From positions 1-49,049 of the IMG/VR virus record IMGVR_UViG_3300010885_022232: a stretch of 49,049 bases of DNA, one strand, 5' to 3'. This document shows positions 37 through 5,314 of the stretch, in pieces. Origin of the DNA: a virus. The notes under the pieces are model-generated. The model was given only the letters and a program-made list of their open reading frames with translations. It did no database searches and was not told the DNA's origin. The translations under genes were made by a program, and so were the position numbers. How positions within the stretch are numbered: position 1 is the stretch's first letter; the number at the start of each line of letters is the position of its first letter.

Positions 37-432
37 ATGCCTGTATCAGAAATTAAGGTTGTACTTATAGCTAGGGAAGAAGCTTCCTCTATAATACAAG
101 AAGGCCTTTTTTGTTTGAGAATGTCCTTAACTTATGGGGCAGATAACACAGACCATAGCCAATATTGGGAACAATTCATTAAAAAGGTTATCTATTTTAT
201 TGCTAGGAGTAATCCTTGCATTTGGCTTTTGCCAACAACAAAATCACAAAGTTATACAGCTAATCTGCCTGCTAAAACTATCTTTAATGTGATGAAATAT
301 GATGATGAAACAATTTATCAAATTCCTGTTAATGTAGATTACAATTATGTGTTTAAAGGAACATATATTAACCTTAAGCACATAAACATCCTTTTAAAAA
401 AAAGAGGAAAAACTGAATTATTAAAATTTTAA
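37..432 (+). CDS. Hypothetical protein, 131 aa
   Basis: I do not recognise this protein. The first ATG (37) touches the T-tract of the preceding terminator, which leaves no room for a normal leader; the ATG at 121 (starting MSLTYGADN) may be the true start. The later part is rich in aromatic and hydrophobic residues without a clear membrane segment and ends in a Lys-rich tail. The stop lies 11 bases before the beta-grasp gene, so the two are probably co-transcribed between the terminators at 2-34 and 1148-1175. The function is unknown; the link to the ubiquitin-like cassette rests only on position. Confidence 0.6.
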   Translation: MPVSEIKVVLIAREEASSIIQEGLFCLRMSLTYGADNTDHSQYWEQFIKKVIYFIARSNPCIWLLPTTKSQSYTANLPAKTIFNVMKYDDETIYQIPVNVDYNYVFKGTYINLKHINILLKKRGKTELLKF

Positions 433-443
433 AAATTAAAACC

Positions 444-1139
444 ATGAGTGAAGTACAAGCTCCAGTTACAACTGAAAGAGAAATTACTATTTATGCTACT
501 AGAGGTGGCCAAATGAAGAAAATCATGACTTCTGCAACTACTTGGGGAGAATTGCAACCCTTAGTAAGAAGAGAAGGATTTGATTTGTCTTCTTTATTAG
601 CAGCAGAAAACATTAACAAGTCTGACTTGGTAAATGATTTAGCTGTATTGCCAACAACTGCTTTCAGACTATTCTTAAGACCAAAGCAAACTAAATCAGG
701 TGCTTTGGATAGAAAAGAATGTTTTGCTGCTATCAAAGCTCATATTGCTGTTTATCCTGCTGACAAACCAAAATTTACTATTGATGGTAAAAACATGACT
801 CAGTTATCTACTCAAGTAGTACAAGATTTAGTTGCTAAATATTGTAAAAAGTCTACAACTCAAGTTGTAGAAACAGTTAAACAAGTTGTAGAATCTGTAA
901 AAGAATCTAAAACTGTAAGTAATGTAGTTTCTGAGTCTAGAGGTTTAACAAATGCTGAAAGAGTTGAAGAAGCTCTCAAATTAGTAGCTTCTTTATCAGG
1001 TTTTTATGCTTATGAAAAAGTAGAAAAACATTTGAATAAACTTTATGATGAAGTTTCTACTGAAGAACTTGCTCCTCAAATGGCAGAAGAATCTGAAGAA
1101 GATGCTATTAGAAGAGAAGCTAGAGAAATGGGTTACTAG
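444..1139 (+). CDS. Ubiquitin-like beta-grasp protein with C-terminal extension, 231 aa
   Basis: Residues about 12-80 have the layout of a ubiquitin-like/PRTRC-C-like beta-grasp fold: strand (ITIYATRGG), second strand, helix (TTWGELQPLVRREG), then short strands ending in a hydrophobic strand and a polar tail (FRLFLRPKQTKSG, residues 74-86). A second small domain (about 87-135) follows, then a heptad-like linker with QVVETVK and QVVESVK back to back, and an acidic, charged C-terminal part ending MGY. There is no terminal Gly-Gly; the only Gly in the tail of the domain is G86. The downstream E2-like, JAB and E1-like genes suggest it is the modifier of a conjugation pathway. The fold and position are observed or inferred; conjugation is not shown. 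It is followed directly by its own terminator. Confidence 0.6.
   Translation: MSEVQAPVTTEREITIYATRGGQMKKIMTSATTWGELQPLVRREGFDLSSLLAAENINKSDLVNDLAVLPTTAFRLFLRPKQTKSGALDRKECFAAIKAHIAVYPADKPKFTIDGKNMTQLSTQVVQDLVAKYCKKSTTQVVETVKQVVESVKESKTVSNVVSESRGLTNAERVEEALKLVASLSGFYAYEKVEKHLNKLYDEVSTEELAPQMAEESEEDAIRREAREMGY
861..893 (+). repeat. 12-bp direct repeat with 21-bp period inside the beta-grasp gene
   Basis: CAAGTTGTAGAA occurs at 861-872 and again at 882-893. The 21-base period equals seven codons and encodes two consecutive heptads (QVVETVK, QVVESVK), consistent with a short coiled-coil linker between the beta-grasp part and the C-terminal region. Confidence 0.7.
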
Positions 1140-1147
1140 TATTAATT

Positions 1148-1178
1148 AAGGGCTTATGTAATGTAAGCCCTTTAATTT
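1148..1178 (+). terminator. Terminator after the ubiquitin-like gene
   Basis: A 9-bp stem, AAGGGCTTA (1148-1156) with TAAGCCCTT (1164-1172), closes a 7-base loop and is followed by a T/A-rich tract (TTAATTTATTT). It begins nine bases after the TAG stop of the beta-grasp gene and ends before the next ATG at 1186. It probably lowers expression of the downstream E2-like/JAB/E1 genes relative to the modifier. Confidence 0.7.
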
Positions 1179-1185
1179 ATTTATT

Positions 1186-2388
1186 ATGTCAAGAAATATA
1201 AGAGATAATGTAGAAGAACCTTTTAAGGATTTTCTAAATAATGCTACTCTAATGGGATTTCACAAGAAAAAATGGTTCTTAAGTTATCTTTTTGATAAGA
1301 GAAAAATAACTATTTCAGGACTTGTAGGACAAGGACAATCTCATAGGAATAAAGTAAAACAAGATTTCTTTAAAATACTAGACTTATTTGAAGAAAAGTA
1401 TAAAGGACAAGCTGACTTAGGTTTTCATAAAGACAAAGATTCACAATGTTATATACCTTACTTTAAAGTTCTTTACCCACAATTCATTATTAGTAATAGT
1501 CAAGGAAGAACTCATGAGATAAAAGATTTGTTTGTTTTTCATAGTTTTAGATATAGTAATGGTTCTGTACATCCTTACAAATTAGAGGGTGGCAGATTTT
1601 CCAAAACTGATTTAGAAGTTAGTTCAGGATATCAACAAAGTCATTTAGGAAGCCATGGTAATTGGAAAACAACTCCTTTCTATTGTAGTAAATTTTGTGT
1701 TGGTTCTGATACTGATGTTAGTCTAATGCTGGCTGAATTTGAAGTAGAGATGGATTTTGATAGGTATGAGTTATTCTTGTTTTGTGTAGATTCTATGATT
1801 ACTTGGGAATCTTTAGAGGGTGTTCCATATATTAGAATGGAGAATGTTAAAAATGCTAATTCTAATAGGGTAACTAGTACTCAAGATAGGTATGAGAATC
1901 AAGTAATTGATCAAATTATAAAGGATAAAATTCCTTTAGATGTAGACTTTTATGTTTCAGATGGTGTTTATAAAATGCATCCTAACTTAAGAGCATCTGA
2001 GTTTATTAAAGGTATAGTGTTAAAACTTTTTACTTTTGAAATAGCTAAGACAATCTTAGTTACTAGAACTCAAAATACTTTTGATACTTATTTACAAATG
2101 AGACCAGAAAGTGCTGTTGTAAAACAAATAAATGAACTTGTTGCAACAGAAGATTACACTATTTTTAGAGGAAGAAAAATCTATGCTAAAATAGTTAAAG
2201 AAGATAAGAGAAATGACACTCCTATCTCAATAGAAGATTATATTGTTTATCCTAAATTTTTAGAAAATGTCCTTAGAAAACTTGAATCCAGAATCTATGA
2301 GAAAGCAGTTGTCAAGAGTGCAATTGCAATCCAAAATACCAGTAATAATGCCAATAGAGGTGTTACATCAGATACAGTATCTGTGTAA
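1186..2388 (+). CDS. Putative E2-like (PRTRC-B-like) protein, 400 aa
   Basis: The gene lies between the beta-grasp gene and the JAB and E1-like genes. The middle contains a Gly/His-rich stretch (LEGGRFSKTD, then GYQQSHLGSHGNW at residues 148-160) followed by PFYCSKFCVGSDTDV (164-178) and, 27 residues on, W207-ESLEGVPY. Histidines, a short gap, then Cys-x-Gly-Ser before a helix is the arrangement of E2/UBC folds and of PRTRC system protein B, where Cys accepts the modifier; C171 is the best candidate, C167 the alternative. This is motif-level inference without an alignment. The C-terminal 150 residues are unassigned and basic. The 3' end overlaps the JAB gene in another frame. Otherwise it is an unknown conserved protein. 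Confidence 0.5.
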   Translation: MSRNIRDNVEEPFKDFLNNATLMGFHKKKWFLSYLFDKRKITISGLVGQGQSHRNKVKQDFFKILDLFEEKYKGQADLGFHKDKDSQCYIPYFKVLYPQFIISNSQGRTHEIKDLFVFHSFRYSNGSVHPYKLEGGRFSKTDLEVSSGYQQSHLGSHGNWKTTPFYCSKFCVGSDTDVSLMLAEFEVEMDFDRYELFLFCVDSMITWESLEGVPYIRMENVKNANSNRVTSTQDRYENQVIDQIIKDKIPLDVDFYVSDGVYKMHPNLRASEFIKGIVLKLFTFEIAKTILVTRTQNTFDTYLQMRPESAVVKQINELVATEDYTIFRGRKIYAKIVKEDKRNDTPISIEDYIVYPKFLENVLRKLESRIYEKAVVKSAIAIQNTSNNANRGVTSDTVSV

Positions 2389-3499
2389 AAAAATTGCTGA
2401 AGTAGAGTGGTCAGGTGCTCTATTCTATACTACAGAAGGTAGTATAGAAAAACCTGAAACATTTAAAGTTATCTTAAAAACAATTCTCCCTTTAGATAAA
2501 GGCTCAAAAGCCTATACTGAATACAATCTTGATGAAAGATTTATGGATTTTATTGAGGAAGACTTTGAAGAAAGATGTACTTGGAAGTTAGGTCATATCC
2601 ATAGTCATAACAGTATGGCAGTATTCTTTTCCGGAACTGATATGGCAGAGCTTAATGACAATGCTCCAGCACATAATTTCTACTTATCCTTAATTGTAAA
2701 CAATGCTATGGACTTTATGGCCAAAGTTGCTTTTATAGGAGAAGCTAAGAAAGATATTAAACAGGTTCCATATACAGCTAAAAATGTACAAGGCCATGAC
2801 TATATTATTGAGAAACAAGACTTTGAAGTTAATACTCAAAAGTTGTTTATTTATGATTGTGATATTTATAGTGACTTACAAGAACTGTCTGTTACTGACC
2901 AATTTATAGCTCAGGTAGCTAAAATCATGGAGCCTAAACCTGTGAAAACATTTCCTGGAATACTTCCTAATAATGTTACTACAAATCAAACTAAAGGTTG
3001 GAGTAGAGGTAATAGAGATCAAAAAGAAATTGATGCTTGGAATAGAAGTTTTAAGAAAGAAGAACCTAAAAAGCCTTTTAATAATTGGCAAGATTGGGGA
3101 GTTCCTTTAAACTTGGAAGATGAAATAGAAGATTTAGAAGACATAGAGTTACACAATATGTCTATTTATGCTTTTGCTAAAGATTTGTTTAGTTTCACTA
3201 TTTCTCCTTTAGATGAAGAAGAAACTATTGAAGATGTTCTTGATGTCTTAGCTGAATATGAGTCAACACCTCAAGAAGTGGCAAAGTCTGTAATCAATGA
3301 TTATGCTAAGGTTTTTGCTAAGCACTTTCCAAAAGCTTCTGCTACTGATTTTGTACAATTTACTTATGAAACTCTAGATTTACTAGATGATATAGTGATG
3401 ATATATCCTGAAATCAGATTGACCCTTAGAACTATTACATCAATGATTGAAAAATTTATTTCCCATGAGACAGATAAGAGACACAACCCAACAATCTAG
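2297..3499 (+). CDS. JAB/JAMM metallo-isopeptidase with long C-terminal extension
   Basis: The JAMM zinc signature is complete: an upstream Glu in EVEWSG, then HIHSHNSMAVFFSGTD, which fits H-x-H-x7-S-x2-D. Such proteases cleave ubiquitin-like modifiers from targets or trim precursors, the expected partner of the beta-grasp and E1-like genes. The domain fills roughly the first 190 residues. The rest is a charged linker (GWSRGNRDQKE) and an acidic helical part (DEIEDLEDIE; LDEEETIEDV) that I cannot assign and that may bind a partner. ATGs exist at 2267, 2297 and 2348. I prefer 2297: it keeps the first beta strand (KIPVIMP) while reducing the overlap with the preceding gene. The end overlaps the ThiF gene by about 50 bases, suggesting translational coupling. 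Confidence 0.85.
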   Translation: MRKQLSRVQLQSKIPVIMPIEVLHQIQYLCKKIAEVEWSGALFYTTEGSIEKPETFKVILKTILPLDKGSKAYTEYNLDERFMDFIEEDFEERCTWKLGHIHSHNSMAVFFSGTDMAELNDNAPAHNFYLSLIVNNAMDFMAKVAFIGEAKKDIKQVPYTAKNVQGHDYIIEKQDFEVNTQKLFIYDCDIYSDLQELSVTDQFIAQVAKIMEPKPVKTFPGILPNNVTTNQTKGWSRGNRDQKEIDAWNRSFKKEEPKKPFNNWQDWGVPLNLEDEIEDLEDIELHNMSIYAFAKDLFSFTISPLDEEETIEDVLDVLAEYESTPQEVAKSVINDYAKVFAKHFPKASATDFVQFTYETLDLLDDIVMIYPEIRLTLRTITSMIEKFISHETDKRHNPTI

Positions 3500-4166
3500 G
3501 TTTAAAGATGCCCCTTGGTTTCCTAAAAACAATGAAATTTGTTTAGTGGGAGGTGCTGGTGGTATAGGTTCTTGGTTATGTTTTTTCTTAACTAAGATAG
3601 GTTTTAAAGTCAATGTTTATGACTTTGACACTGTTGAAGACCATAATCTAGGTGGTCAATTATTTCAACAAAGTGATATTGGTAAAACTAAAGTAACAGC
3701 TCTTCATAATATAGTACAAAATTTCTGTGGGAACAGAATAGCTACTTTTAATGAAAGAATTACTAGTGACACTCCTAATCATTATTACAGTTTTTCTGCT
3801 TTTGACAATATGGAAGCTAGAAGAACTTTGTTTATGAATTGGAAACAATCTTGGGGTTATGTAGATGATATTAGAGTGCCTATATTCATAGATGGTAGGC
3901 TAGAGATAGAACAATTACAGATATTCTGTGTTACTCCTGTTAATGCTGATAGATATGAAAGAGAGCATTTATTTCATGACAGTGCTGTAGAAGAAGCTCC
4001 ATGTACAATGAAGCAAACTTCTCACACTGCTGCTATGATAGGTTCTCTTATGTCAGCATTCTTTACCAATCACATTACCAATGTTTATTTAGGTGAGACT
4101 CTCAGAGAAGTCCCATTCTATTATGAGTTTGTAGTTCCTATGAACTTCACACAATCAGAGTTATGA
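3447..4166 (+). CDS. ThiF/E1-like adenylyltransferase (PRTRC-ThiF type), 239 aa
   Basis: The protein has the hallmarks of an E1/ThiF/MoeB adenylation domain: the Rossmann loop GGAGGIGS (35-42), the acidic pair in VYDFDTVE (58-64), NLGGQ (67-71) where ThiF has NLxRQ, GKTK (79-82), and the DNMEAR motif (120-125) equivalent to the D-N-x3-R that positions Mg-ATP. APCTMKQ (184-190) supplies C186 in the place of the E1 catalytic cysteine. No paired CxxC zinc knuckles are seen, as in the short phage/plasmid PRTRC form. The expected reaction is adenylation of the modifier C-terminus followed by thioester transfer to C186. M7 (3465) is an alternative start. The stop overlaps the next ATG (ATGA). Confidence 0.88.
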   Translation: MKNLFPMRQIRDTTQQSRFKDAPWFPKNNEICLVGGAGGIGSWLCFFLTKIGFKVNVYDFDTVEDHNLGGQLFQQSDIGKTKVTALHNIVQNFCGNRIATFNERITSDTPNHYYSFSAFDNMEARRTLFMNWKQSWGYVDDIRVPIFIDGRLEIEQLQIFCVTPVNADRYEREHLFHDSAVEEAPCTMKQTSHTAAMIGSLMSAFFTNHITNVYLGETLREVPFYYEFVVPMNFTQSEL

Positions 4167-5314
4167 GAATAACTTTACATACCATAGGTACTTTTTATGG
4201 TAGTCAATTTACTATAACTCCTATTATTGCTAATGATTATATTCCTTTGATAGCTTTTCAAACTAAGTTTATAAGAGAAAGTCTTTTCTATTATGGAAAA
4301 CCTTCTTTTGAAAAAACTGTTTCAAAACCAAATACTCTTAAAAATATTAAAGATGGTTTTGAGTTAAGTCATAGTACAAGGAAGATTAGAATCAATGACA
4401 GGAATTTTTATATTGCTAAGGGAGTTTTCTTTTCAGAAGCAGGTGTACCTTTAATGGTATGTGCTATGAAGAAAGAAGCTTTTTTAGATCAGTCCACCTG
4501 TAAGTACTCTGACTATTATTTAGGTGGAGAGTTCTCCTACAACAATTACGTTTTATTTTATTCCACTTCTTTTTTCACTGACCCTGGTCTAATGCCTTTA
4601 AATAGGAGACTTCAAAAAGAAATATTACAATCTTGCTATGAAAAAGGTATAGAGGTAAGAGTGATTTCCTCCCTAGAAATAGAGAAGAATACCTTTGCAA
4701 GATTATTTGAAGTCAAAAAGACAAAGTCTTTGACACAATTAGAAGCCTACATGGAGCAAGTACTGCCCAATTTCTTACACAATGAAGGAGAGGACACCTT
4801 TGTAGAGAAAGAATTTGAGCCTATAGTACTAGCACATGAAGAAGAACTTTCCGTAGAAGATGAAGCTCTTTTATTTGATAACAACTCTACTATTACTACT
4901 ATTACTACTACATTGCCTTGGGAAATCCCAGCACAGACAATAGCAGATGCTAGAGAGCTAGCTGAACTAGAAGCAGAAGCTGCTACATTTAACCATCCTT
5001 TAGAACCTGAAATAGATTGGGAAACAATTGAAGCAGCACTAGATACAGAAGAATCTGCCCATACAGGTTCTGAAAGAACAGTTAGATTTGTTACTAATCA
5101 AGCAGGAATAGAAATGTTTGAAAATGCTCTTAGAGCTGAAGTATCAAACTTTCTTCCACATCCTGCAGACTCTTTAGTAGAAAGAATGAGACCATTGCAA
5201 GATGCTTATAATGTGCAAATGTTACAAGCACAACAAAGAGGTCAATTACAAGCTGAAAGAGAAGTAGTCAGAGGATGGCAGTCAAACATAGAGCTTATAG
5301 ATGATACGGAATAG
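4163..5314 (+). CDS. Unknown protein coupled to the ThiF gene, 383 aa
   Basis: The start overlaps the ThiF stop by four bases, so the two are almost certainly translated together. I recognise no family. The first 215 residues look like a folded alpha/beta domain with aromatic clusters (SLFYYGKPSF; YYLGGEFSYNNYVLFYSTSFF). From about residue 215 the protein becomes acidic and low-complexity (HEEELSVEDEALLF; STITTITTTLPW), then helical and Glu/Ala/Gln-rich (ARELAELEAEAA; MLQAQQRGQLQAERE) to the end. No membrane segment or zinc motif is seen. Position makes it a candidate substrate, adaptor or ligase-like factor of the ubiquitin-like pathway, which is inference only. Confidence 0.75.
   Translation: MRITLHTIGTFYGSQFTITPIIANDYIPLIAFQTKFIRESLFYYGKPSFEKTVSKPNTLKNIKDGFELSHSTRKIRINDRNFYIAKGVFFSEAGVPLMVCAMKKEAFLDQSTCKYSDYYLGGEFSYNNYVLFYSTSFFTDPGLMPLNRRLQKEILQSCYEKGIEVRVISSLEIEKNTFARLFEVKKTKSLTQLEAYMEQVLPNFLHNEGEDTFVEKEFEPIVLAHEEELSVEDEALLFDNNSTITTITTTLPWEIPAQTIADARELAELEAEAATFNHPLEPEIDWETIEAALDTEESAHTGSERTVRFVTNQAGIEMFENALRAEVSNFLPHPADSLVERMRPLQDAYNVQMLQAQQRGQLQAEREVVRGWQSNIELIDDTE

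Follow-up and report, generated by a model that had tools for sequence, protein, structure and literature searches.

The five adjacent rightward genes described here most probably form a self-contained, phage-encoded ubiquitin-like conjugation module, a reading to which we assign a probability of about 0.7. They lie in a window that comprises the whole IMG/VR record IMGVR_UViG_3300010885_022232 (49,049 bases). The open reading frames that an earlier note had described were all found at the positions it had assigned to them, and the features are as follows.

444..1139, + strand: Ubl modifier precursor, 231 aa (beta-grasp 12-80, K84-S85-G86, helical tail 87-231)
693..701, + strand: K84-S85-G86, putative maturation site, from the invariance of G86 and the tail in every member
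1186..2388, + strand: p400, probable E2-like protein, 400 aa (candidate thioester Cys C171, invariant H153)
2267..3499, + strand: JAMM metalloprotease, 410 aa (catalytic region approximately residues 20-160, plus a C-terminal extension)
3465..4166, + strand: E1-like adenylyltransferase of the ThiF family (catalytic-type Cys codon 4002-4004)
4163..5314, + strand: fifth cassette protein, 383 aa (overlaps the E1 stop codon at an ATGA)

The genes are tightly packed. The end of p400 and the start of JAMM share 122 nt (window 2267-2388), read in different frames, so that one stretch of DNA constrains the ends of both proteins, and overlaps of tens to more than 100 nt recur at this junction in most relatives. 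As had been proposed, the fifth gene is translationally coupled to E1 through the ATGA at the E1 stop. For E1 itself, the ATG at 3465 is the more likely start than the TTG at 3447, because the relatives begin at the same MRQ; the Cys numbered C186 from the TTG is C180 from the ATG.

The family assignments of the E1 and JAMM proteins are secure. The JAMM protein has the motif E47...H112-S-H114-x7-S122-x2-D125, which conforms to the signature E-x(n)-H-x-H-x7-10-S-x2-D, and Prok-JAB (PF14464) is detected in 18 of 18 JAMM members (best 4.9e-6), though below threshold in the window protein itself. A profile search against the PDB retrieves CSN5 (E=0.0048). The E1 protein carries GGAGGIGS, DNMEAR and PCT, matches ThiF (PF00899, 1.3e-15) as a single ThiF domain of 239 aa, and finds UBA6, UBA5, MccB and ThiF in the PDB (2e-12 to 6e-11). 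In profile-profile comparison with the PRTRC ThiF protein the probability is 99.9%, with the Cys aligned to the Cys of PSCS. The ThiF domain, the GxGGxG motif, the catalytic R/K/D residues and the conserved Cys expected of an E1/ThiF protein are therefore all present. Residues E47, H112, H114, S122 and D125 of JAMM and D61, N67, K82, D120, R125 and C186 of E1 are 100% conserved among the aligned residues of 114-116 distinct relatives, despite low overall identity, so the motifs are not due to chance. These results bear out the earlier identification of a JAMM isopeptidase family member and of an E1-like adenylyltransferase with a catalytic-type Cys. The label 'thiamine biosynthesis protein', which E1 bears in GenBank entries of phages such as MH675552 and NC_031904, is probably misleading. 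We do not regard thiamine biosynthesis as a likely role, since no other thiamine gene is nearby and an E2-like partner is present.

The modifier was predicted by AlphaFold with a pLDDT of 86 overall and 96-98 in the beta-grasp (residues 12-80). Its Foldseek neighbours in the PDB are UBX, SUMO, ubiquitin and the C. subterraneum (Caldiarchaeum) ubiquitin, with target-based TM-scores of 0.6-0.7, in agreement with the beta-grasp fold suggested previously. Beyond the beta-grasp, the model continues into a linker containing K84-S85-G86 and then into helices. G86, located just past the last strand, is invariant in 108 of 108 Ubl sequences and is the sole fully invariant residue besides Met1; K and S are kept in 94% and 92%, the motif being KSG in 94 sequences, KAG in four and something else in a few. 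The model thus places a conserved Gly, which could become C-terminal, just after a beta-grasp fold, as expected for a modifier of this class. A tail of 1-207 residues follows G86 in every sequence (108/108), a precursor character that the earlier note had overlooked. In most members the tail is a long conserved domain (GKNxT...ST). At least eight natural members have dispensed with the tail, whereas Gly86 is never lost, and the shortest natural Ubls are lone beta-grasps that end in KSGK, KSGLN, KSGTSI, KSGNKN or AAGI.

We regard p400 as probably an E2-like conjugating enzyme. Residues H153, C171, G173, E208, S209 and G212 are invariant in 116 sequences, and the motif HSH...FC-G contains both H153 (codon 1642-1644) and C171 (codon 1696-1698). 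The AlphaFold model (pLDDT 90, pTM 0.82) consists of one long helix, four strands, a Cys loop (Y-x-x-S-H...C-x-G) and helices, the same succession of elements as in UBC folds. However, Foldseek comparison of the model with the PDB and with viral models retrieved no E2 and matched only its own family with confidence; the best PDB match was weak, namely the kinetochore chain 8ovw_O (prob 0.16), which we take to be an RWD protein. Pfam likewise gave no E2 for the window protein, nor did the 25 families that it listed when 77 members were searched include one, and hhalign against PRTRC-B, PRTRC-F and the E2-like protein of a second phage group (see below) aligned nothing past the C-x-G motif. The E2 candidacy put forward earlier is favoured by the gene position, the motif with its two invariant residues and the element order, but a match to E2 by structure, Pfam or profile-profile comparison was not obtained.

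The fifth protein is a fast-evolving member of the cassette. After an iterated profile search, 73 of the 101 distinct ORFs directly 3' of E1 join one family. A Pfam search with the protein returned no match and comparison with the PRTRC-E, PRTRC-F and PRTRC-B profiles found nothing; it may be an adaptor or a substrate.

The distribution of the cassette was evaluated by scanning IMG/VR with three of the proteins, which yielded 28 loci with E1, 100 relatives with p400 (80 kept) and 283 relatives with JAMM (80 kept); the remaining genes were recovered by profile searches within these loci. The order Ubl-p400-JAMM-E1 is complete and on one strand in all 147 phage loci with enough DNA on either side (91 distinct by gene lengths), so that the conserved order anticipated in related phages is indeed found. 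The nearest cultured relatives are the Flavobacterium psychrophilum Fpv phages (E1 identity 59%), and the same block is present in the Bacteroides phages crAss001, DAC15, DAC17 and PhiCrAssBcn, as well as in gut genomes such as cr85 and cr111. In crAss001 the cassette corresponds to gp79-gp76, annotated as hypothetical, hypothetical, metalloprotease and 'thiamine biosynthesis'. The label 'crAss-like' given to this virus is a loose one: the closest cultured relatives, the Fpv phages, belong to Fipvunavirus, which the record does not place under Crassvirales, but true Crassvirales (Steigviridae) do bear the same cassette. In a sample of 395 Bacteroidota genomes no phage-type JAMM was detected, the one weak match falling outside the catalytic region; on these searches, the cassette is a phage set rather than a common host one.

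In cultured phages the cassette is neighboured by primase, uracil-DNA glycosylase and nuclease genes of a replication block, and this position suggests that it is expressed together with replication genes. The 131-aa ORF at window 37-432 is related to, but shorter than, a protein of 177-249 aa that carries the annotation uracil-DNA glycosylase in Fpv3; the ORF is probably cut by the contig start. The PHROGs of the five proteins, 15560 (Ubl), 15310, 16107 and 21448, 15670, and 15446 in the order listed, are all of 'unknown function' and are not connected to one another in the database. As a separate observation, one relative (L013:7715-7995, IMGVR_UViG_3300044846_001842) has a group I intron, matching Rfam RF00028 at 89 bits, between JAMM and the rest of E1, the downstream E1 exon beginning at residue 41, right after the GxGGIGS nucleotide-binding motif.

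Distant kinship of E1 and JAMM led to a second, deeply diverged phage group (L023-L028, L233-L241) with the same order of Ubl, large E2-like protein, JAMM and E1. Its Ubl ends in QESGNK or in QESG plus nine residues (overall, SG plus 2 to 9 residues). The large protein, of 660-730 aa, has the motif YHPH[IV]D..[GA].AC[LYW]G.W, and its profile meets human UbcH7 at the active-site motif in 9 of 12 weak PDB matches (E ~1), which is suggestive only. These cassettes adjoin genes for RecA-like ATPases and primase-helicase-like proteins. No similarity between the two groups' Ubls was detected by hhalign, nor between the window Ubl and PRTRC-C; the links of the Ubl and p400 to their PRTRC and second-group counterparts are by position and design only.

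A tail on the Ubl tends to go with a JAMM gene. In PRTRC operons the Ubl has a tail after the Gly in 8 of 9 cases with JAMM and stops exactly at the Gly (TKG, VKG, SKG or NG) in 27 of 27 without it, counts that are not independent, since they represent about eight lineages with the association lying mostly between clades, and the association is not significant alone at the lineage level; the corresponding figure for operons was computed with 28 loci instead of 27. The exception is the Comamonadaceae OS-4 plasmid (L247), in which JAMM is present and the Ubl already ends in KSKG. The Xanthomonas jumbo phage PhiXhv-12 (L195, 227 kb) has a 140-aa Ub-like candidate ending in SGG beside E1, together with an 892-aa multi-Cys protein containing HPHM...SLCLGS, and no JAMM across its whole genome. 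In the Bil system, BilC trims BilA and thereby exposes the reactive Gly (reviewed in PMC11354881). Given this precedent, the invariance of G86 and the co-occurrence of tail and JAMM, we think it very likely that JAMM matures the Ubl by cutting at the invariant Gly. For Ub-like proteins of prokaryotes in general, the pairing of tail and JAMM yields a simple prediction of whether such a protein is made as a precursor and, if so, of its cleavage position.

From these assignments a reaction sequence can be proposed. JAMM would cut the 231-aa precursor after Gly86, exposing ...QTKSG-COOH. By analogy with the chemistry of its family, E1 would then use ATP to adenylate Gly86 and link the tag to its own invariant Cys in a thioester, from which the tag would move to C171 of p400, if the latter is indeed an E2. 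In the last step the tag would be attached, most likely through an isopeptide linkage, to a target in the infected cell that is, at a guess, a protein of the phage or of its host; JAMM may also take it off. Since the hosts of this phage group are not known to have a proteasome, the tag would more probably regulate or inactivate its target than mark it for degradation.

Other functions can be imagined for the same genes. The E1 could thiocarboxylate the beta-grasp protein, which would act as sulfur donor for a cofactor, nucleotide or tRNA, with JAMM serving only in maturation and p400 as the acceptor enzyme. The ThiF annotation in phage records and the matches of E1 to ThiF models are in line with such a sulfur carrier, and JAMM-matured sulfur carriers occur in bacteria (Iyer et al. 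2006, PMC1779556); yet the loci read contain no rhodanese domain or other thiamine or Moco gene, the E1 is closest to PRTRC ThiF, and p400 occupies the slot of the HPH...C E2-like protein of the second phage group. We therefore consider this quite improbable. It is also conceivable that the beta-grasp and helical domains constitute a non-covalent or structural replication factor while the enzymes serve another purpose, e.g. peptide modification. Such a role would suit the long conserved tail of most members and the adjacent primase gene, but it sits so poorly with the loss of the tail, never of Gly86, and with the lone beta-grasps of the minimal members that we give it very little weight.

An unlikely but related idea is that the cassette attacks or mimics host Bil or CBASS Cap2/Cap3, for example with JAMM stripping host tags and the phage modifier competing. 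The cassette is phage-encoded, and its JAMM and E1 align weakly to the CBASS JAB and E1-E2 models. A decoy or stripper alone, however, would need no complete and catalytically intact E1 and E2-like set such as is kept in 147 of 147 loci. Counter-defence would be compatible with the conjugation module if the tag target were a host defence protein.

Complete ubiquitin-type conjugation sets have been reported before from bacterial defence systems and from plasmids; the one proposed here is kept as a conserved block by lytic phages, human-gut Steigviridae among them, masked by the 'thiamine biosynthesis' label. If the conjugation module is real, bacterial viruses run their own protein-tagging pathway. 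A fuller proposal is that the core genes of crass-like phages from gut and water encode every component of a viral ubiquitin-type pathway (precursor tag, processing protease, E1 and a new E2-like family), that the tag carries a helical pro-domain which can be released, and that the pathway covalently labels infected-cell proteins and is required for infection to proceed normally; this seems to us evenly poised between true and false. The cassette is testable in phages already in culture, namely crAss001, DAC15 and the Flavobacterium Fpv phages.

Operons combining Ub, E1, E2 and JAB were predicted in prokaryotes by Iyer et al. 2006 (PMC1779556), whose group 6d, from PRTRC plasmids and ICEs, comprises a Ub-like protein, JAB, E1, E2 and an alpha-helical protein. 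Papers on crAss001, crass-like genomics and crassvirus structure make no mention of ThiF, JAB or ubiquitin, and in the part of the literature covered we found no paper describing the cassette in phages, so an earlier mention may exist. The parallel to PRTRC drawn by the earlier note is valid for gene content (Ubl, E2, JAMM and E1), for E1, which is homologous including the position of the Cys, for the weakly homologous JAMM and for the Ubl tail after Gly where JAMM occurs, but does not extend to family membership. The phage cassette differs in its location in virus genomes, its other fifth gene and its long Ubl tail domain. Membership was rejected on five counts. The window E1 scores 43.7 bits against PRTRC_ThiF (TIGR03736), below the curated cut-off of 144.75. 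Prok_Ub (PF14454) does not match the window Ubl and does not figure in the 25 families that 84 Ubl members matched most, whereas the positive control PRTRC-C scores 9e-31. Prok-E2_D (PF14460), which PRTRC-B matches at 3.5e-50, does not match the window p400 and is absent from the list of 25 families obtained with 77 members. DUF2016, present in the PRTRC-A control, was not found at the N-terminus of the window JAMM. Lastly, no ParB, PRTRC-E or PRTRC-F lies beside the cassette, as judged from cultured-phage neighbours and an NCBIfam search.

With Bil the cassette shares Ubl, E2, JAMM and E1 in the same functional order, the Ubl being matured by JAMM in Bil (PMC11354881). However, BilA has two Ubl domains, in contrast to one beta-grasp followed by helices; BilD combines an inactive and an active adenylation domain (~450 aa), in contrast to the short single domain of the phage E1; and Bil belongs to the host, whereas the cassette is carried by the phage. 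The BilD model meets the phage E1 at E=0.016, and neither BilA nor BilB has a match among the cassette proteins. With its one Ubl domain and one ThiF domain, and lacking BilA and BilB matches, the cassette was not accepted as a Bil system. The E1 and JAB enzymes of CBASS type II (Cap2/Cap3) are distantly related to those of the cassette, but there E1 and E2 are fused in Cap2, which conjugates a nucleotidyltransferase, and a beta-grasp modifier is absent. Among the lambda-type tail assembly proteins TAPI/TAPK, too, a Ub-like protein of phage origin has a JAB peptidase as its neighbour (Iyer et al. 2006, PMC1779556), but in a structural-gene context and without E1 or E2. Judged by these sequence comparisons, the cassette belongs to neither PRTRC nor Bil and adds a new, phage-borne branch to the prokaryotic Ub/E1/E2/JAB theme; it is nearest to group 6d (PRTRC) in its E1 and content and to Bil in its order.
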